The position numbers and the translations under genes are program-made. This document shows, one piece after another, positions 1 to 45,066 of a DNA stretch of 58,624 nucleotides (position 1 is the first letter of the stretch; every line of letters starts with the position of its first letter). The notes below the pieces were generated by a model that was not told the origin of the DNA, made no database searches, and saw only the letters and a program-made list of their open reading frames with translations. The DNA comes from Candidatus Vecturithrix granuli. GTDB lineage: Bacteria; Moduliflexota; Moduliflexia; Moduliflexales; Moduliflexaceae. The DNA lies in the NCBI GenBank assembly GCA_000739535.1, contig DF820463.1, forward strand, positions 544,727-603,350, read 5' to 3'.

Positions 1-60
1 GAAACTCCAGTTTCGCGGCTATCAACGATGCGCGAAACTGGAGTTTCGCGCTACATTTTC
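1..60 (+). repeat. Leader repeat A, copy 1 (double hairpin, left end cut by window)
   Basis: The first arm (from base 1) and the second arm CGCGAAACTGGAGTTTCGCG (31-50) are reverse complements, and each is also a near-palindrome. The RNA can therefore form two local hairpins or one long helix. The element ends CTACATTTTC and is followed at once by GGGGAG and the ATG at 73. Other copies lie at 9580, 9699, 22824 and 28653, with single-hairpin relics at 23048 and 27453. It is unlikely to be coding, although its reading frame is open into the downstream gene. Confidence 0.85.
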
Positions 61-72
61 AGGGGAGAAAAC

Positions 73-372
73 ATGATACTGGCACGCGTAAAAGGGTCGG
101 TCGTATCTACTCATAAGAGTGAAAAAATTGAGGGGATCAAATTCTTGCTCCTGGAAGCATTAGATCCTTCGACGATGGAAGGGAAAGGGAGCTACGTTGT
201 GGCGATGGATGCGGTCGGAGCCGGGCCTGGGGAAGTGGTCTTTTATGTCTCCGGCAGCAGCGCCAGAATGACGAAGGTGACGGACAAAAAACCGGCTGAT
301 GCCTCGATCATTGCCATTGTTGATAATATCGAGATAAATGGGCAGTATGTCTATCAAAAAGGACAAGAATAA
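73..372 (+). CDS. BMC vertex protein, EutN/CcmL family (BMC-P 1)
   Basis: This 99-residue protein is a pentameric shell protein that would cap the vertices of a bacterial microcompartment. It has the family pattern: an N-terminal strand ILARVKGSVV, a central LLLEALDP, the VAMDAVGAGPGEVVFYVSGSSAR core and a C-terminal ASIIAIVDNIEI. An upstream in-frame ATG at 28 exists but would translate the repeat hairpin. The ATG at 73, preceded by GGGGAG, gives a standard BMC-P length. It is the first of four BMC-P genes before position 3125, followed by an aldehyde dehydrogenase, RpiB and DeoC, which places it in a sugar-phosphate type BMC locus. The paralogs differ in sequence and may form mixed vertices. 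Confidence 0.92.
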   Translation: MILARVKGSVVSTHKSEKIEGIKFLLLEALDPSTMEGKGSYVVAMDAVGAGPGEVVFYVSGSSARMTKVTDKKPADASIIAIVDNIEINGQYVYQKGQE

Positions 373-5569: not shown

Positions 5570-5848
5570 ACTACAGCGAATTGAGAAATGGAACGTATTC
5601 GGACGAACAGTACAGCAAATCGAGAACACTACATCGAATGAAGAAATGGAACGAATTTATTTTGGAAGATAAGGGATGTATGTGAGAAAAGCAAGAAAAT
5701 TCGTTCTATTTTGATTCATCGTCGTCTTTTTCTATTTCGATGTCGTATTCATAATTCGTTCCATTTCTTCATTCGATGTAGTGTTTTTCCCAACTCGCTT
5801 TAATGTCCTCCTCCCAATTCGTTCCATTTTCCAATTCGTTGTAGTGCT
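5570..5848. repeat. Nested palindrome of four related arms (family H)
   Basis: Outer arms ACTACAGCGAATTGAGAAAT (5570) and its inverted counterpart ending CCAATTCGTTGTAGTG (about 5847) enclose inner arms ACTACATCGAATGAAGAAAT (5629) and TTTCTTCATTCGATGTAGTG (5763-5782). All four are variants of one unit. The structure spans almost 280 bp with no gene inside. A shorter single copy lies at 7640-7709. It looks like a MITE inserted into another copy of itself. Confidence 0.75.
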
Positions 5849-7804: not shown

Positions 7805-7965
7805 ATTTAGCTCATCTTTTCGCCGTAGGCGATACAGTATTGTAGCAACGAGGGCGGCTCACCTCCCGCATATCTTTCGCCGTAGGTGATCCAGAACCGC
7901 TACGCGGTAGGAAATCCCGGGGACGACGCAAAGGCTACAATACTTCAACCGCTACGCGGTAAAAA
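7805..7965. repeat. Family E repeat cluster
   Basis: It contains TCGCCGTAGGCGATACAGTA (7813-7832), TCGCCGTAGGTGATCCAG (7878) and CCGCTACGCGGTA twice (about 7897 and 7950). It matches the cluster at 786-1054 and reaches into the 3' end of the GH28 gene, whose last residues and stop it supplies. Confidence 0.65.
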
Positions 7966-9567
7966 TCCCTGCGTAACGTGAGTAAAATACCGATCATCAA
8001 GAAAAATATTGCGGGTTTGCTGTCCCTGAAGCTGAATAAAATTCTCGCTCAGGCTCCCTTGCAGGCAGGCATGAATACAGGCATTTTCCACTTGATTCAA
8101 GACGATTCCCGGTATCTCTTTGCGAAAATTTTTCAGACTGAATCTATAAATTTCAATATCCTGGCTTTCCTCAAGAAAAAGCCCTTCGCCCTGCTGCGTC
8201 TCAATCCGCACATGCGCAAATTGCACATCTTGCAGATATTTGCCCCAGATGCCTTTGCCCGCCATTGGCTTCAGTCCAAACATCATTGCCGGCGGTTCTG
8301 TAATTTCTTCGAGCAGCGGGGACATTTCAATCAACAGGTCATGAAATCGCACTTCCTGAATGGGCATCTCCGGCAAACCATGCAGAAAACCAGCTGCGGC
8401 GCGGACTTCTCGGGCTGTAATATTCGCAAAGGCCATATTACGAAATACGGGGGTAGTTTCCGTTATTGGCTGCGGTTCAGAGGAAAAATACCAATCCTCC
8501 GGTTTTGCCCCGCAGCGATAAAACATGTTCATCACAATCGGGCTTAACACGCGTTTCATCAGGATATTACTAACGCGAAGGTCTTCAACGATTCCGCCTC
8601 TGCCGCGGCGGGCCTTGAGTCTGATGCCTCTATCCGTGCCGAGAAAGATGCAGTTTGAAATTGTCACATTCCGCACACTGCCGGCGATTTCGCTGCCAAT
8701 CACGACTCCTCCGTGCCCATGCAGCATGGTGCAATTCGTAATCGTGATATTCTCGGTTGGTTTTCCCACGCGGCGACCGTCCGCATCCATCCCGGATTTT
8801 AAACACAGACAATCATCGCCGACGTCAAAATAACAATCGGAAACTCTGACATTGCGACAGGAATCAAGATCCAATCCATCGGTATTCGGAGCATTTGGAG
8901 GGTTTTTAAAGGTCACGCTGCGAATCACCACATTCTCACAATAGACCAGGTGCGTATTCCAGAAGGGCGAATTCTGATGGGTTAACCCTTCTAAATGGAC
9001 ATTGCGGCAATTCATAAACTGCACTAAAGGTGGGCGCAGAAACTGAGTTTCTCGTCCGCCACCGCCTGATCCGCTCGATTCGTAGCCTGTATTTAAACGC
9101 GCCAATTCGCGTTCGAATTCCGTTTCAGGGCCGGTTCTGCCTTGCTCGCGACGTTCTTTGAAAGCATCCCACCATACAGATCCCTGTCCATCCAGCGTTC
9201 CTCGCCCTATAACACTAATATTTTCGAGATTGTTTCCATAAATCAACGGAGAAAAGCCATAACACTCGACCCCTTCCCAACGGGTTTGTACCGGCGGATA
9301 ATCTTCAAAATCACGGCTAAACAGCAAGGTCGCGCCAGCGTCAAGGTATAAAGTGATAAAGCTGCGCAGGTGCAGACTGCCGGTCAGATAAATTCCGGCA
9401 GGAAAATAGATTGTCCCACCTCCATGTTGGGCGCACTGGTCAATGATCTGCTGAATCGCCCGGGTCTCTTTCCTGATCCCATTCCCAACCACTCCCAAAG
9501 CACGCACATTATAGGCGGGAAGAGATACAGTGGAGGGGTATAAACTATTGTAGATAGGCATTTCCAT
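7945..9567 (-). CDS. GH28 polygalacturonase-family glycoside hydrolase
   Basis: This protein of 540 residues is a right-handed beta-helix enzyme that cleaves galacturonan or rhamnogalacturonan. The start at 9567 has AGGAG five to six bases upstream; a longer in-frame start would translate the leader repeat. It has the beta-helix entry GGGTIYFPAGIYLTGSLHL and all GH28 active-site motifs in order: NTDGLDLDS, GDDCLCLKSG, GHGGVVIGSE and RGIRLKARRG. There is no obvious signal peptide, so it probably acts on imported oligosaccharides. The last residues (QGFLPRSG) and the stop come from a family E repeat, so the native C-terminus may have been altered slightly. Confidence 0.93.
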   Translation of the reverse strand: MEMPIYNSLYPSTVSLPAYNVRALGVVGNGIRKETRAIQQIIDQCAQHGGGTIYFPAGIYLTGSLHLRSFITLYLDAGATLLFSRDFEDYPPVQTRWEGVECYGFSPLIYGNNLENISVIGRGTLDGQGSVWWDAFKERREQGRTGPETEFERELARLNTGYESSGSGGGGRETQFLRPPLVQFMNCRNVHLEGLTHQNSPFWNTHLVYCENVVIRSVTFKNPPNAPNTDGLDLDSCRNVRVSDCYFDVGDDCLCLKSGMDADGRRVGKPTENITITNCTMLHGHGGVVIGSEIAGSVRNVTISNCIFLGTDRGIRLKARRGRGGIVEDLRVSNILMKRVLSPIVMNMFYRCGAKPEDWYFSSEPQPITETTPVFRNMAFANITAREVRAAAGFLHGLPEMPIQEVRFHDLLIEMSPLLEEITEPPAMMFGLKPMAGKGIWGKYLQDVQFAHVRIETQQGEGLFLEESQDIEIYRFSLKNFRKEIPGIVLNQVENACIHACLQGSLSENFIQLQGQQTRNIFLDDRYFTHVTQGFLPRSG

Positions 9568-9579
9568 GACTTCTCCTAT

Positions 9580-9650
9580 GAAAATGTAGCGCGAAATTCC
9601 AGTTTCGCGCATCGTTGACAGCCGCGAAACTGGAGTTTCGCGGTACATCG
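9580..9650 (-). repeat. Leader repeat A, copy 2 (upstream of GH28)
   Basis: On the minus strand it reads CCGCGAAACTCCAGTTTCGC, a spacer, CGCGAAACTGGAATTTCGCG and CTACATTTTCATAGGAG, followed by the GH28 ATG. The Shine-Dalgarno that serves the gene lies at the end of the conserved element. Confidence 0.85.
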
Positions 9651-9655
9651 TATTT

Positions 9656-9801
9656 TCATTGCGTCGAGTGAGCGGCGACGTTCATGATAACTCCTATGAA
9701 AATGTAGCGCGAAATTCATTTTCGCGCACCAGTGAGACGCCCGCGAAAAGGAATTTCGCGGTACATCGTATATTCATTACATCGGGTGAGCCTACGCTCA
9801 T
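9656..9801 (-). other. Two mini reading frames between leader repeats
   Basis: On the minus strand, CACAGGAGTTTCC precedes an ATG at 9801 that opens a 35-codon frame beginning MSVGSPDVMNIRC. It runs through leader copy 3 and stops at 9694. Its TAG overlaps the next TAGGAG, which precedes an ATG at 9685 opening the 9-codon frame MNVAAHSTQ that ends at 9656. A near copy of the first frame (MSVGSPDAMKIRCTAK) lies beside the iorA leader. There is no evidence of translation, and the frames may be by-products of repeat structure. Confidence 0.4.
9699..9768 (-). repeat. Leader repeat A, copy 3 (degenerate)
   Basis: Two hairpin arms (GCGCGAAATTCATTTTCGCG and the CCGCGAAAAGGAATTTCGCG arm) have drifted from the consensus but keep the layout and the CTACATTTTCATAGGAG end. 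It is in tandem with copy 2. Confidence 0.75.
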
Positions 9802-9808
9802 GGAAACT

Positions 9809-9866
9809 CCTGTGAAACTCCAAGGATTCCTCATAAGCTTCGTTCAAGATCATTCCTTTGTCATGT
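9809..9866. repeat. Family B hairpin, partial
   Basis: It begins GTGAAACTCCAAGGATTCCT and has related TCATTCCTTTGTCAT at the other side. This is a degenerate member of the GAAACTACAAG hairpin family seen at 22940, 25798, 27325 and 44988. Confidence 0.45.
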
Positions 9867-21138: not shown

Positions 21139-22809
21139 CTATGCGTTCTCGCTTTTCCGTTTGCGAGCTAAGGTCTGGATACACCCGCGTCGCGGAATCA
21201 CCACCGAAACCCCGTTGTATTCGACTTCTGCTTTCAAAATCTGCACCATCTCGTCGTAATTTTTGGGCAACGGTTCAAACACCCGGATATGTTCCGGAGC
21301 CACGCCGACGCCTTTGCAGATGTCTTCCAATTTGCCGACGCCGGGCGAATCCTGACCGCCGGTCATCGCCGTGGTCATATTATCCAGGATAACGACGACC
21401 ATGTTGCTGTTTTCATTCACGGCGTCCAATAAGCCTGTGATACCGGAATGGCTGAAGGTTGAGTCGCCGATTACGGCGACCGCCGGATACAAACCAGCGT
21501 CTGCCGCGCCTTTTGCCATGGTGATTGACGCGCCCATATCAACGCAGGTGTTAATTGATTCAAAAGGCGGCAGAAATCCCAGGGTATAACAGCCGATGTC
21601 TGAAAACACATGGCCTTTGCCGTAAGGTTCCAGAACTTCATTGAGAGCATTATACACATCGCGGTGCGGGCAGCCCTTGCACAATTCCGGCGGACGGGGC
21701 GCGACAATCTCAGAAATAGCCGGACCACTCGTATCTTCGTGTCCTAAGGCTCTGGCGACCAGATTCGGGTTCAATTCGCCGTCCCGCGGCAGCGTACCAT
21801 CCAAACGGCCTTTGATGATCAGCGGACGTTTGACATGCGCAATTTTGCCGGATTCCGCGCTGATGGCATCCAATGACACCTGACCGTAAGCCATATCGCC
21901 CAGATAGCCTTTGAGCATCTCTTCTACAATCGGCATCCCCTCTTCAATTACCAGAACTTGCCCGCATTCGGCAGCAAGTTGTTCAATCTGTTTGCGGGGC
22001 AGCGGGTACTGGCTGATTTTCAGAATAGGATGCGGGCATTCGCGGTCCTGCCAGTTTTCCATCAGATAATTATAAGCCAGGCCGCAGGCAATAATCCCTA
22101 AGGATTTATCAGGGCCGTCTTTATAAACGTTAAAGGGCGAGTTCTCAGATTCTTGAACAAAATCGGTCTGTTTGCCCAGGAGCAGTTTGTAGCGTTTACG
22201 GGCAATCGCCGGCAGCAGCATGAACTGGTTCGGGTCTTCCGGTTTGTGCAACGTGTTTTCTGCTATCGCTTCCCGTTGTTGGACTCCGGCGCGTGAATGC
22301 GCCAGGCGCGTGGTCAAACGAATCATGACCGGCACGTGATATTTCTCCGACAGCGCAAAGGCGTGAAAAGCCATATCGTAAGCTTCTTGCTGATTAGAAG
22401 GTTCTAAAACCGGCAGCATGGCAAATTTGGCATAAAATCGGGAATCCTGTTCGTTTTGGGACGAGTGCATCGAGGGATCATCCGCCGCTGCAACGATCAC
22501 TCCGCCGTTTGCCCCGGTTAACGCGGAATTCAGATATGGATCCGCCGCGACATTTAATCCGACGTGTTTCATACAAGCCATGGCCCGTTTTCCGGCGTAG
22601 GACATGCCTAATGCCGATTCTAACGCCGTTTTTTCGTTTGCAGACCAGGTCCGGTGCACGTTGCGTTCCTTCGCTTCCGGGCTGCGTTGAATATATTCGG
22701 GAATTTCGGTTGAAGGGGTGCCCGGATAGGCATACACCCCTGACAAACCAGCATCTAAGGCCCCTTGCGCCAGAGCTTCATCGCCCAGGAGTAATAATTT
22801 TTCTTTCAT
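21139..22809 (-). CDS. iorA: Indolepyruvate/2-oxoacid:ferredoxin oxidoreductase, alpha subunit, without ferredoxin domain
   Basis: This protein of 556 residues starts at 22809, where AGGAG lies six bases upstream. N-terminal KLLLLGDEALAQGALDAGLSGVYAYPGTPSTEIPE is the pyrimidine-binding domain. The C-terminal half has LCKGCPHRDVYNAL and the TPP motif GDSTFSHSGITG with ILDNMTTAMTGGQ. The protein ends soon after VSVVIPRRGCIQ, so the two-cluster ferredoxin domain found at the C-terminus of many IorA proteins is absent. It is co-transcribed with iorB. It is led by leader repeat A copy 4. Confidence 0.92.
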   Translation of the reverse strand: MKEKLLLLGDEALAQGALDAGLSGVYAYPGTPSTEIPEYIQRSPEAKERNVHRTWSANEKTALESALGMSYAGKRAMACMKHVGLNVAADPYLNSALTGANGGVIVAAADDPSMHSSQNEQDSRFYAKFAMLPVLEPSNQQEAYDMAFHAFALSEKYHVPVMIRLTTRLAHSRAGVQQREAIAENTLHKPEDPNQFMLLPAIARKRYKLLLGKQTDFVQESENSPFNVYKDGPDKSLGIIACGLAYNYLMENWQDRECPHPILKISQYPLPRKQIEQLAAECGQVLVIEEGMPIVEEMLKGYLGDMAYGQVSLDAISAESGKIAHVKRPLIIKGRLDGTLPRDGELNPNLVARALGHEDTSGPAISEIVAPRPPELCKGCPHRDVYNALNEVLEPYGKGHVFSDIGCYTLGFLPPFESINTCVDMGASITMAKGAADAGLYPAVAVIGDSTFSHSGITGLLDAVNENSNMVVVILDNMTTAMTGGQDSPGVGKLEDICKGVGVAPEHIRVFEPLPKNYDEMVQILKAEVEYNGVSVVIPRRGCIQTLARKRKSENA

Positions 22810-22823
22810 GATCATCTCCTCTA

Positions 22824-22893
22824 AAAATGTAGCGCGAAACTCCAGTTTCGCGCACCAGTAATCCGCCCGCGAAACTGGAGTTTCGCGGTACAT
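22824..22893 (-). repeat. Leader repeat A, copy 4 (upstream of iorA)
   Basis: On the minus strand, CCGCGAAACTCCAGTTTCGC, a spacer and CGCGAAACTGGAGTTTCGCG are followed by CTACATTTTTAGAGGAG and the iorA ATG. The layout matches copies 1, 2 and 5, with one extra base before the start. Confidence 0.85.
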
Positions 22894-22939
22894 CTGATTT
22901 TCATTGCATCGGGTGAGCCTACGCTCATGGCAACTCTTT

Positions 22940-23010
22940 TGAAACTACAAGGATGACTCATAAGCAAGGATGTGTGATCCCTGGTGATGTGAAATCCTTG
23001 TCGTTTCATT
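22940..23010. repeat. Family B hairpin
   Basis: GAAACTACAAGGATGACTCA at the left faces ATCCTTGTCGTTTCAT at the right. The element is flanked by CGGGTGAGCCTACGCTCATG-type linker sequence that also occurs at 9785 and 41740. Confidence 0.6.
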
Positions 23011-23047
23011 GTGCCGGGTGAACATCAGCTCATGACGTCTCCTCTGA

Positions 23048-23080
23048 AAATGTAGTGCGAAACTGAAGTTTCGCGCACAC
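23048..23080. repeat. Leader repeat A, single-hairpin relic
   Basis: AATGTAGTGCGAAACTGAAG and TTTCGCGCAC form one of the two hairpins of family A next to a CTCCTCT (minus-strand AGAGGAG). Confidence 0.6.
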
Positions 23081-24465: not shown

Positions 24466-25785
24466 CTATTCAAGAGGGGTTACACATTCTTTACAGGCAA
24501 TCCCCAATTGTGCGAGTTCCTTGAGCACCGGTTCGTAAATGCCAGGAATTACTGGGATGTGTACGCCTTTGAGCGTAATTTTCCCTTCCAAAATCATTGC
24601 CACTCCAATCGCGGCCGGTAAACTGACGGTTCTCGACATGGCGGATTCGCCGCCCGGTTCCCCGGTCTGAATCAGCGTGGAGGTGATAAATTCTTGTTTG
24701 TCAGGATATTCTGCGATAAATTGATGATAGAGGATGAGTAAATCCGCATCGTCGCTCGCCATGGACAGTTTTTTCTGTAAGAGGGCACAGAACATATCCA
24801 TGACATTATTCTCATCCGGCAGCGGCGTGTCGTCAAACAGCCCTAACCAGGCGAATTTTTTGATGACCGTCGAATAGGTTTCCAGATTGAGGTACATGGC
24901 GGTTTCTTCGATAATATCATAACTCTCTTCTTCGTCAATCAGTTTCGCCATCATTTCCTGATACGTGAGTCCGCGCAGATCTTCACGCGGCGTATCGTCA
25001 AACAGCCCTAATTCCTGCGCCTTTTTCATGGTTTCACACCAGCCGATGTTACGCAGCGTGCCTCGGAACACGGTGTGCGCATCTTTTAAGCCGTAGATTT
25101 CCTGATAAGGCAGGGAATTGCGGTTTGTATAGGCTTCATACGTGCCAAGCCCTTCGACATCGAGCAGTTCATATTCTCGAAACAAATTTTTACTGGGGAT
25201 GAACACCACTTCGCCATCTTGCAGAAATTGGCCGTTATTTTTCCCGGCCATGACGACCCCGCGCGGACTCCAGGAAAATTTATAGCCAAACGGATTGGTG
25301 TTGCTTTGCAAAGCCGGTAAGCCGCCGCAATAGGATCTGAAACTCGTCACTTTCCCGCCTTTGTTCTCGACCCCATGGATGACTTTCATGGCCGACATGT
25401 GGTCAATGCCAGGATCCACGCCGATTTCATTCAAAATGATAATCCCGGCTTTTTTAGCCTCGCCGTCTAAGGCCCGCATCGCATCGCTCACATAGGAGGT
25501 CGTGACCATATCTTTCTTATGCTTGATGCAGAGTTCTGCGATTTTGACATGATAAATGTAGGGCAGTAAACTGACCGCGAGATCGCAACCAGCAACAAGT
25601 TGCTCCAAATGAGTATCATCCTGTACGTTCAATGCTTCAGCGGAACCGTTGGCATAGCCCTGAATCAAGGCTTCTGCTTTACCGACTGTGCGGCTGGCGA
25701 CTTTGACGGCGTAGCCTTTGTCTAACAAATAATGCACTAAGGGTTTGGACACTAATCCTGCGCCTAATACTAAGACTTTTTTCAT
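24466..25785 (-). CDS. Saccharopine dehydrogenase (glutamate-forming type)
   Basis: This protein of 439 residues converts saccharopine to 2-aminoadipate-6-semialdehyde and glutamate, or the reverse. The Rossmann motif KVLVLGAGLVSKPLVHYLL opens the protein. DLAVSLLPYIYHVKIAELCI, MVTTSYVSDAM, ILNEIGVDPGIDHMSAMKVI, YCGGLPALQSNTNPFGYKFSWSPRGV and AHTVFRGTLRNIGW follow the pattern of the SDH half of animal AASS. The start follows CAGGAGAACAACA. The gene upstream encodes the matching LKR, so the two halves of the fused eukaryotic enzyme are separate here. Confidence 0.92.
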   Translation of the reverse strand: MKKVLVLGAGLVSKPLVHYLLDKGYAVKVASRTVGKAEALIQGYANGSAEALNVQDDTHLEQLVAGCDLAVSLLPYIYHVKIAELCIKHKKDMVTTSYVSDAMRALDGEAKKAGIIILNEIGVDPGIDHMSAMKVIHGVENKGGKVTSFRSYCGGLPALQSNTNPFGYKFSWSPRGVVMAGKNNGQFLQDGEVVFIPSKNLFREYELLDVEGLGTYEAYTNRNSLPYQEIYGLKDAHTVFRGTLRNIGWCETMKKAQELGLFDDTPREDLRGLTYQEMMAKLIDEEESYDIIEETAMYLNLETYSTVIKKFAWLGLFDDTPLPDENNVMDMFCALLQKKLSMASDDADLLILYHQFIAEYPDKQEFITSTLIQTGEPGGESAMSRTVSLPAAIGVAMILEGKITLKGVHIPVIPGIYEPVLKELAQLGIACKECVTPLE

Positions 25786-25797
25786 TGTTGTTCTCCT

Positions 25798-25890
25798 GTG
25801 AAACTACAAGAATCTCATATAAGAAAGAATTGATTTCTGCCACACCTGCGATCACATTCTTTCCTATATAAGATTCCTGTAGTTTCATGA
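25798..25890. repeat. Family B hairpin (leader of saccharopine dehydrogenase)
   Basis: TGAAACTACAAGAATCTCAT with ATAAGAAAGAAT pairs with ATTCTTTCCTATATAAG and ATTCCTGTAGTTTCA. The arms are about 32 bases and cover almost the whole element. It lies just upstream of the ribosome-binding site. Confidence 0.8.
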
Positions 25891-27415: not shown

Positions 27416-27452
27416 CATGCCGGGCGAATAACCCACGCATGACATCTCTTGT

Positions 27453-27485
27453 GAAAATGTCGCGCGAAATTCCTTTTCGCGCATG
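27453..27485. repeat. Leader repeat A, single-hairpin relic
   Basis: GAAAATGTCGCGCGAAATTC and CTTTTCGCGC form one hairpin of family A. On the minus strand it is followed by CACAAGAGATGTCATG and a short open frame MRGLFARHDK. Confidence 0.55.
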
Positions 27486-28434: not shown

Positions 28435-28652
28435 TTTCAAATGTTCATATAAAATCTGTCAATATTTTTCAGCAGCGACAATCCTGCAAAATAGTTCGTT
28501 GGTAATGGGTTTTTTGAGTAAACATGAATATTTTCAAAGAGTTACAAGAATGATTTTGATGAAAGAAAAATTTCTTAAACCAGAAATTAAAAGATTTCTT
28601 GACGCAAAATCCAACGTTAATTAACTCTGCAAATTACTTTTTCAAAGGAAGA

Positions 28653-28724
28653 AATGTACCGCGAAACTCCAGTTTCGCGGGCGGATGAATGGTGCGCGAA
28701 ACTAGAGTTTCGCGCTACATTTTC
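28653..28724 (+). repeat. Leader repeat A, copy 5 (upstream of ABC ATPase)
   Basis: ATGTACCGCGAAACTCCAGT with TTCGCGG, a spacer, and GCGCGAAACTAGAGTTTCGC with GCTACATTTTC are followed by AAAGGA and the TTG start at 28737. This is the best complete copy on the plus strand. Confidence 0.85.
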
Positions 28725-28736
28725 AAAGGAAAAATT

Positions 28737-29513
28737 TTGACCGAACATTCTTTACTCCGATTTGACCATATTTCCTTTGCTTACCGGCCAAAACACTCTT
28801 TGGTATTACAAGGGGTGCAGCTTGAGATTCCGGCGGGCAGCCTGACCACGATTTTAGGCCCTAACGGCGTTGGCAAATCCACGCTGCTCTTTCTGGCCTT
28901 AGGCTGGCTCAGACCATTGCACGGGCATATCTGGCTGGATGGCCGCCCTCAGCACGAGTGTACGCGCCGCGAAATGGGACAATTTATGAGTCTGGTGCCG
29001 CAGCAGGAACAACTGACCTTTGCCTATTCGGTTCTGGAATATATTCTTTTAGGACGCGCGCCGTATCTTTCCTCATTATCCGCCCCAGGCGCAGAGGATT
29101 ATGCGATTGCCCTGGAAGCTTTGCAGCAGGTCGGTATGGAGGATTTTGCGCAGCGCAATATCATGGAATTGAGCGGCGGCGAGCGGCAGATGGTGGTGAT
29201 CGCCCGCGCTTTAACGCAGCAGCCGCGCTTGCTGTTGTTAGATGAACCAACCACGCACCTTGACTTGCACAACAAAGCTCAGGTGCGCAACCTCCTACAT
29301 CGGCTTCAGCAACAGGGTGTGACTATTTTGATGACCACCCACGAACCGGAACTCGCCGTTGATCTGGCTTCGCACGTGGTCTTAATGCAGCAGGGGCGCA
29401 TCCTGTATGCCGGAACAACCGAAAACGCGTTTACTTCCGAACGGTTAAGCCAATTGTATCACTCGCCGGTACAGGTGGCGCAAATCGCTGGCCGTCAAGT
29501 CGTGTTATGGTAA
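28737..29513 (+). CDS. ABC transporter ATP-binding protein (FecE/BtuD type)
   Basis: This protein of 258 residues starts at a TTG after AAAGGAAAAAT; an in-frame ATG at 28689 lies inside the repeat. It has Walker A GPNGVGKSTLL, Q-loop SLVPQQEQLTFAYSVLEYILLGRAPYL, signature ELSGGERQMVVIARAL, Walker B LLLLDEPTTHLD and switch His in TTHEPEL. The Q-loop and the LGRAPYL segment are typical of iron-siderophore, heme and cobalamin importers. No permease or binding protein lies next to it here. It overlaps the following NTPase gene by seven bases. Confidence 0.92.
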   Translation: MTEHSLLRFDHISFAYRPKHSLVLQGVQLEIPAGSLTTILGPNGVGKSTLLFLALGWLRPLHGHIWLDGRPQHECTRREMGQFMSLVPQQEQLTFAYSVLEYILLGRAPYLSSLSAPGAEDYAIALEALQQVGMEDFAQRNIMELSGGERQMVVIARALTQQPRLLLLDEPTTHLDLHNKAQVRNLLHRLQQQGVTILMTTHEPELAVDLASHVVLMQQGRILYAGTTENAFTSERLSQLYHSPVQVAQIAGRQVVLW

Positions 29514-41707: not shown

Positions 41708-41776
41708 CAATTTCGTACTACATGGTCAATGGAGTGAATATGAGCGTAGGCTCACCCAACATCATGAAAATCACAA

Positions 41777-41832
41777 GCTCGTAGTAGCCGCTTTAGCGGC
41801 GTAAAGAAACGCTAAAGCGTTTACTACAAACG
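41777..41832. repeat. Family D double hairpin
   Basis: GCTCGTAGTAGCCGCTTTAG with CGGC, then AACGCTAAAGCGTTTACTAC. It lies about 20 bases before the ribosome-binding site of the gene at 41859. Bases 41739-41770 repeat the family A linker ATGAGCGTAGGCTCACCC. Confidence 0.75.
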
Positions 41833-41858
41833 GTTATTTTCACAGGAGGACAGATATT

Positions 41859-42458
41859 ATGGATTTACCGATTCATCTGGCAACCGGGGCGTTAGTTGGC
41901 AGCGTGGTTCTTTATGTTGACCAGACCATGCCTCACAATTCCAATTCACCTCGACAATTGGTAAAGGTAGGCGTTGCATGTTTTTTGCTGGGGGTGCTTT
42001 CCCATCTGTTATTGGATGCGATGCCGCACTACGACTGGTTATTTTACATTACAATTTTTAAACCGCTTCCTTTCTGGTGGCACATTCCGCAGGTTATTGC
42101 GGCCATACCGGTCGTAGCATTCACCTGGTACATGCTGCACGATCATTCGGTCATCGCCATGATCTCGCTCCTGGGCGGAATCTATCCTGACCTTGAAAAA
42201 TTGGCCTATTTTGATTTCCACCTGCCGCGTGAGCTTGTCATCTTTGAGCAGCATAGCTGTTATCTCTCGCAATGGAGGTCCTGGGAACTTGCGCATAAAA
42301 CATTCTTGATCGTCTTTGAAACGCTTTTGCTACTCACGTTATTGATGTTAGCGTATTGGATTTCAGTGCAACGGAACAAACGTGCGCTTTCAACAGCGTA
42401 TTTTGAGGTGACATATGAAAACATACTGGCATCCAAAACAGATGCAGATTGCGCCTGA
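41859..42458 (+). CDS. YdjM-like membrane-bound metal-dependent hydrolase
   Basis: This protein of 199 residues shares all key blocks with the N-terminal half of the 40177 gene: DLPIHLATGALVGSVVLYVD, LLGVLSHLLLDAMPHYDWLF, LLGGIYPDLEKLAYFDFHLPRELVIFEQHS. Conserved His/Asp residues (IH, LSHLLLDAMPHYD, YPDLEK, QHS) could bind metal. About four transmembrane segments are predicted. The start follows CACAGGAGGACAGATATT. Its end overlaps the radical SAM gene by 44 bases, so the two are tightly linked. Confidence 0.82.
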   Translation: MDLPIHLATGALVGSVVLYVDQTMPHNSNSPRQLVKVGVACFLLGVLSHLLLDAMPHYDWLFYITIFKPLPFWWHIPQVIAAIPVVAFTWYMLHDHSVIAMISLLGGIYPDLEKLAYFDFHLPRELVIFEQHSCYLSQWRSWELAHKTFLIVFETLLLLTLLMLAYWISVQRNKRALSTAYFEVTYENILASKTDADCA

Positions 42459-44902: not shown

Positions 44903-44987
44903 GGCATACCTCCTATTATCATTGGCATTGGTCTTTCATAGAAGAAGCTATCATGAGCGACTACTCATCCGACGCAATGAAACTACA

Positions 44988-45054
44988 GGAATAAAGAATA
45001 AGCAAAAATCATTCCGAAGAGAATTCTTGCTTATTCTTTATTCCTGTAGTTTCA
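44988..45054. repeat. Family B hairpin, near perfect
   Basis: TGAAACTACAGGAATAAAGA with ATAAGCAA pairs with TTGCTTATTCTTTATTCCTG and TAGTTTCA, leaving a loop of about 15 bases. This is the cleanest copy of the family and lies between the aldo/keto reductase and the end of the TRAP operon. On the plus strand it follows a short ATGAGCGACTACTCATCC linker. Confidence 0.85.
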
Positions 45055-45066
45055 AAAGAGCCGCTA

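Follow-up and report, generated by a model that had tools for sequence, protein, structure and literature searches.

The window, by which we mean the whole stretch of 58,624 nucleotides of the Candidatus Vecturithrix granuli genome analysed here, contains a family of palindromic repeat units, several of which lie directly in front of genes (Table 1). An earlier note on this DNA had placed copies at positions 1, 9580, 22824 and 28653 before four unrelated genes, and this was borne out by the gene assignments: EutN_CcmL/BMC-P, GH28, an iorA-type POR_N/TPP enzyme and an ABC ATPase. In the last case the gene would start at a TTG that follows GGAA. The fifth copy does open onto a 9-codon frame, as had been claimed, and that frame (MNVAAHSTQ, minus strand) is the leader of the next, tandemly arranged unit. 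The arm CGCGAAACTCCAGTTTCGCG and its complement have 16 matches in the window (up to three mismatches) against 0.02 expected, and the end motif has 10 against 1.83 expected. Copies not listed earlier are two with a single arm (27463-27481 and 23056-23075) and three whose core differs (right ends 25793-25803, 41838-41848 and 45050-45060). No match to Rfam at the gathering score was found in the window.

Table 1. Repeat units in the window and the genes or frames onto which they open.
Position	Strand	Parts	Followed by
1-67	+	Unit cut by window edge: part of arm 1; arm 2, 31-50; right end CTACATTTTCAGGGGAG, 51-67	EutN_CcmL/BMC-P gene 73-372 (+)
9573-9694	-	Complete unit: left GGAG and leader, 9669-9694; arm 1, 9623-9642; arm 2, 9590-9609; right end, 9573-9589	GH28 gene 7945-9567 (-)
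9691-9810	-	Tandem unit upstream of 9573-9694, one GGAG in common: leader, 9787-9810; arms, 9742-9760 and 9708-9726; right end, 9691-9707	9-codon frame 9656-9685
22816-22937	-	Arms, 22868-22887 and 22833-22852; right end, 22816-22832 (ATTTTTA variant)	iorA-type POR_N/TPP enzyme gene 21139-22809 (-)
22934-23042	-	Tandem unit, different palindromic core ACAAGGAT...ATCCTTGT: leader, 23019-23042; right end, 22934-22944	
23039-23075	-	Single-arm remnant: arm, 23056-23075; right end, 23039-23055	Leader of unit 22934-23042 (frame MS-stop)
25793-25803	-	Right end TTTCACAGGAG of other-core unit	Saccharopine dehydrogenase-like gene 24466-25785
27446-27481	-	Single-arm copy: arm, 27463-27481; degenerate right end CGACATTTTCACAAGAG	19-codon frame
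28640-28731	+	Leaderless unit: TTTCAAAGGAA on either side; arms, 28660-28679 and 28695-28714	ABC ATPase gene 28737-29513 (+), TTG start
41731-41848	+	Core GTAGTAGCCGCTTTAGCG...CGCTAAAGCGTTTACTAC: leader, 41731-41754; right end, 41838-41848	Gene 41859-42458
44944-45060	+	Core CTACAGGAATAAAGAATAAGCAA...TTGCTTATTCTTTATTCCTGTAG: leader, 44944-44967; right end, 45050-45060	

The unit is longer than first described, extending about 45 nt further upstream; it measures about 120 bp, begins just past a GGAG, and has the full frame GGAG-TTATC-ATGAGC-nnnn-GCTCACCCG...ATGAAA-(core)-TTTCA-nn-GGAG-n(5-10)-ATG. In 21 isolated copies, conservation before the left GGAG is weak (a single T at 71%) and is strong after it (GGAG-TTATC-ATGAGC-nnnn-GCTCA). 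At the right end (consensus CTACATTTTCANAGGAG), conservation stays at about 90% through CTACATTTTCA, the commonest base reaches 34% and then 78% at the next two positions, and the border GGAG is conserved at 96–100%; conservation is near zero in the spacer that separates this GGAG from the start codon, which is host sequence. Conservation thus stops at both borders, and the unit therefore lies between two GGAGs, one of which tandem neighbours have in common. In 21 of the 22 scored units with the CGCGAAA core, the stretch that runs from ATGAA to the right GGAG measures 87–93 nt. The two bases preceding the GGAG disagree between left and right (the first is equal in 13 of 37 comparisons, versus 11.0 when shuffled), and no target duplication longer than (A)GGAG, these two bases included, was seen in the 37 comparisons. 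The claim that the ribosome-binding site belongs to the repeat therefore holds in part: a GGAG does stand within the frame at the right, but the left border carries one too; ahead of the right GGAG come two weakly conserved bases, and the spacer is that of the host, so that GGAG may be either target or cargo of the unit.

Leaders vary. A second type, ATGTGTT..GGCAAACGCACCAC, begins at the same place before the same double hairpin; an example of the ATGTGTT..GGCAAACGCACCACGGCGAATAAAAATTTTATGGTCAGGGGAAGATGGATGTAG leader is seen in locus L125 at about 5640-5780 (C18:445639-445783), with further copies in C21 and C18. The loop between ATGAGC and GCTCA occurs in 25 versions among 47 leaders, yet is four bases long in 39 of the 47; the leaders at 9787-9810 and 41731-41754 of the window are examples of these near-free bases. 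Covariation in the leader stem is absent, with 33 of 47 Watson-Crick versus 32.7 when shuffled.

The core is most often the double hairpin, but other palindromic cores (ACAAGGATT..., CGCTNAAGCG..., CCGGACAAGG...) occupy the same frame, in the window as well as elsewhere. The sequence TTTCANNGG[AG][GA] stands just upstream of 52 genes, 36 of which have the double-hairpin core, and for eight of the remaining 16 an inverted repeat of 10 bp or longer lies no more than 150 nt away, versus 112 of 705 GGAG genes outside this set; in a few others of the 16, inspection by eye shows recognisable cores that fall under the threshold. No frame empty of a core was found, the shortest span (41 nt) holding a CGCGAAA arm with an unclear right end.

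The source genome comprises 8.38 Mb in 21 contigs (completeness 93.79%, contamination 10.75%), and several units adjoin runs of N in it (for example, C14:182417-182741 and C10:50205). The arm has 871 matches genome-wide (433 forward and 438 reverse, up to three mismatches) against 1 + 1 for a reversed-pattern control, although one hairpin may count on both strands, the arm being palindromic except at its centre. The family thus runs to hundreds of copies, and is larger than the earlier note described. In three other genomes of the phylum the arm has no match. A 31-nt right-end pattern (up to three mismatches) has 218 matches among the 40 genomes searched, all of them in its own genome. A scan of a collection of genome contigs that may have excluded that genome gave no match to a 31-nt pattern. 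The motif TTTCANNGGAG-n3-9-ATG occurs 267 times genome-wide (control, 4), and 8, 10 and 11 times in three relatives (controls, 3, 4 and 3). Because repeats probably break the assembly, the copy counts are probably lower bounds.

The position of the units relative to genes was determined in a sample of 2,458,624 bases (2.46 Mb, 29% of the genome), read in stretches, in which a home-made codon-pair model blind to the Shine-Dalgarno motif called 1879 genes (82% coding). Right ends like CTACATTTTCA-nn-GGAG number 88: 50 open onto a called gene, 20 onto the leader of a tandem neighbour and 18 onto neither. Of these 18, five face an uncalled frame with 30 codons or more and 13 face nothing (one being a false match to a left end). 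A called gene is accordingly faced by 50 of the 68 non-tandem right ends, and GGAG stands 5–10 nt from the start in 46 of the 50, whereas only 15 of 143 opposite, outward-facing ends lie at a called gene start, despite a wider search range. When distances were measured to refined starts, with Shine-Dalgarno motifs rewarded equally in every repeat family, a gene start lay no more than 40 nt from 58 of 89 arm clusters and at 20–40 nt from 52 of 89, compared with 7.1% for random intergenic placement; of the 84 clusters that have a neighbouring start, 26 are more than 40 nt away from it. Only three of 104 clusters lie inside genes. In a GGAG-type REP family of the same genome, six of 43 lie within 40 nt of a start, and for 29 of 43 no feature is closer than a stop codon; that family favours stops, and the preference for starts is therefore no general property of repeats in this genome. 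No excess on the G-rich (replication) strand was found (50 of 88 units versus 1199 of 1879 genes). The idea of the earlier note, in which a preference for gene starts and a fixed distance from end to ATG were essential, survived these counts.

Sense orientation and fixed position before start codons could indicate a portable translation-control leader, in which a double hairpin beside the Shine-Dalgarno motif would be bound by a protein, a small RNA or the ribosome, would control a set of genes and would be kept by selection. The RNA of one unit folds better than its shuffles (z -4.2), and the arrangement is analogous to the SAS/ESAS motifs of phages, thought functional by their authors (PMC3203893, in the parts consulted). 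However, its fold as DNA is at least as strong (z -5.1), and the two predicted scores cannot tell RNA from DNA. The genes behind units also argue against such control: of 46 listed outside the window, 20 were scanned, all 20 match Pfam, and except for three solute-binding proteins they are all in different families, including dapF, rpiB, Prismane, PfkB, AFOR and Creatininase. There is no conserved leader peptide, the frame stopping after two codons in 13 of 47 leaders and being long in the others, and because the genes are unrelated and the peptide is not conserved, no regulon is apparent. The GGAG is predicted to be slightly more open behind units (mean 0.45 unpaired, n = 44) than in native GGAG genes (0.36, n = 200), and the cores are interchangeable and can be inverted. 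We consider this explanation unlikely; of the two readings offered in the earlier note, a mobile repeat landing at gene starts fits better than a portable translation-control element.

Insertion is indicated by the tandem arrays, by flanks that are unrelated between copies, by the lack of the family in relatives and by an iorA orthologue free of the element, but a pair of occupied and unoccupied sites was not found at the DNA level. The iorA orthologue of a family relative (75% identity) starts one codon apart and lacks the element. The rpiB gene of that family relative starts five codons inside the frame of the present genome's gene, with its own GGAG, and those of two order relatives also start five codons inside, with GGAG absent nearby; the relatives are too distant for a DNA-level comparison of empty sites. 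Within the 2.46-Mb sample, neither a paralogous flank pair nor an empty site was found. The joined flanks of 32 units likewise have no second contiguous place there except for self-matches of tandem arrays, and this, together with the unrelated flanks of the copies, speaks against a spread by duplication, gene conversion or homologous recombination between arms instead of transposition, which we regard as very improbable. Recombination has nevertheless acted on units, as indicated by the variable orientation of the core (spacer 1 forward in 27 and reversed in eight of 70 pairs) and by mixed arm pairs.

The units might also have inserted at many upstream places, with selection sparing a unit only where its arrival happened to replace or recreate a Shine-Dalgarno motif. 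The right GGAG, best conserved of all and beside two poorly conserved bases, is what purifying selection on a ribosome-binding site would give. However, the left ends of the 21 isolated copies serve no gene and still start at GGAG, and the right ends that face another unit (20 of 88) also carry it, so that we regard this origin as quite unlikely.

The core itself has the character of a REP. The hairpin is perfect, 20 bp long and of high copy number, as in REP/BIME repeats, and ATGTAG closes the commonest 8-mer preceding the arm, ATGTAC being frequent too. The 188 hits over two strands correspond to about 94 inverted hairpin pairs in the sample, 70 of which end in the Shine-Dalgarno motif. In these 70, the last base of the foot on the gene side is C (GTAG on the other strand) in 62, G in seven and T in one, and on the far side C (GTAC) in 44, G (GTAG) in 25 and A in one. 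Both arms carry the same loop bases in 44 of 70 pairs (39 CTCCAG, four TTCCT and one TTCCAA), a match to be expected either from the long helix or from one REP present in paired copies. The hairpins, their GTAG/GTAC feet and the inverted arrangement are in keeping with REP/BIME repeats; in described REP hairpins GTAG serves as guide with cleavage at CT or CA, and GTAC variants are cut at GA/GT (PMC8266576, in the parts consulted).

The genome has 12 hits to PF01797 (Y1 transposase/RAYT), and none of the 12 is flanked by the present hairpin within about 1.5 kb (3-kb loci). One RAYT gene (L042; G000:C13:24948-28139, 1020-1950; PF01797, 25.8 bits) has clustered GTAC-CGCGAACCTCCCGGTTCGCGG hairpins on either side in a complete REPtron-like arrangement, and its flanking GTAC-CGCGAACC...GGTTCGCGG hairpins are a sister motif of the present core. 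A RAYT-like gene (L040; G000:C18:824243-827479) is flanked by GGAG-TGCGAAAGCTCTGCTTTCGC hairpins, a family that is frequent in the genome near stop codons. At G000:C13:34160-34461, 12 alternating hairpins (GTACCTCGAAACTCCAGTTTCGAGG / GTACCGCGAAATTGTATTTCGCGG) stand in tandem at the 3' end of a permease-like gene.

Of known systems, REP/BIME/REPIN elements with their RAYT (TnpA-REP) are alike in their perfect 20-bp hairpins, high copy number, GTAG-type foot, inverted pairs and intergenic position, and also in that sister hairpins flank a RAYT in the present genome. However, described REPs sit near gene 3' ends (PMC3733652 and PMC12306157, in the parts consulted), whereas the present family stands at 5' ends and has a composite frame with a Shine-Dalgarno motif, a leader ATG and swappable cores. 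The SAS/ESAS of Cluster K mycobacteriophages resemble it in layout only: a Shine-Dalgarno-containing motif stands just before the starts of a subset of genes, and about half have 17-bp inverted repeats directly upstream. They number 11–19 copies in phage genomes, are conserved among related phages at members of the same gene families and, in the description as far as consulted, are without a leader ATG, a second Shine-Dalgarno motif, tandem arrays or core exchange; their consensus GGGATAGGAGCCC, from a phage genome, does not match the right end found here in a bacterial genome of 8.4 Mb (PMC3203893). The BOX, RUP and SPRITE repeats of pneumococcus are likewise modular, structured, small and clustered, and insert into each other, but they are over-represented between convergent genes and, by the parts of the description consulted, have no Shine-Dalgarno junction (PMC3049150). 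For a MITE of a DDE transposon, the check for a target-site duplication gives GGAG on both sides with disagreement in the two bases before it. Elements of the IS200/IS605 type insert as single strands on the 3' side of a fixed, short target sequence, which is not duplicated. After such insertion, by these elements or their non-autonomous derivatives, the target would remain on the left and a site brought in by the element would lie on the right, as here; however, no autonomous copy with the present ends was found, and the left hairpin is without covariation support. In the open-licence literature we found no description of such a repeat family at gene starts.

In short, we favour, at somewhat better than even confidence, the view that the units are non-autonomous mobile repeats of REP type whose landing places are Shine-Dalgarno sites. 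A unit would consist of the leader TTATC-ATGAGC-nnnn-GCTCACCCG...ATGAAA, a palindromic core (most commonly two inverted REP hairpins) and TTTCA-nn-GGAG, followed by the 5–10-nt spacer and start codon of the host. Because GGAG stands on either side of the unit, the gene would keep a ribosome-binding site at the normal distance after its arrival, and host gene expression would presumably survive; the right-hand GGAG could then receive another unit, giving rise to tandem arrays. The units would move by transposition, and GGAG itself may be the target, perhaps in single-stranded DNA processed by a HUH enzyme of RAYT/IS200 type. More tentatively, and with a confidence that falls short of even, we suggest that this transposition is targeted to Shine-Dalgarno motifs by elements that carry or recreate one at their far end and are near-neutral at almost any gene start, so that unrelated palindromic cores could exploit the GGAG-to-GGAG frame and translation starts could serve as a safe harbour.

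Small repeats of REP type have been described mostly at gene ends, and a family at gene starts that keeps the ribosome-binding site intact would be new. If the proposed reading is true, mobile DNA would have a new means of persisting in a genome densely packed with genes, and 5' leaders could arise in bulk by a new route. The genome would also offer a natural experiment, with about 270 sites that have the same Shine-Dalgarno junction and interchangeable cores.
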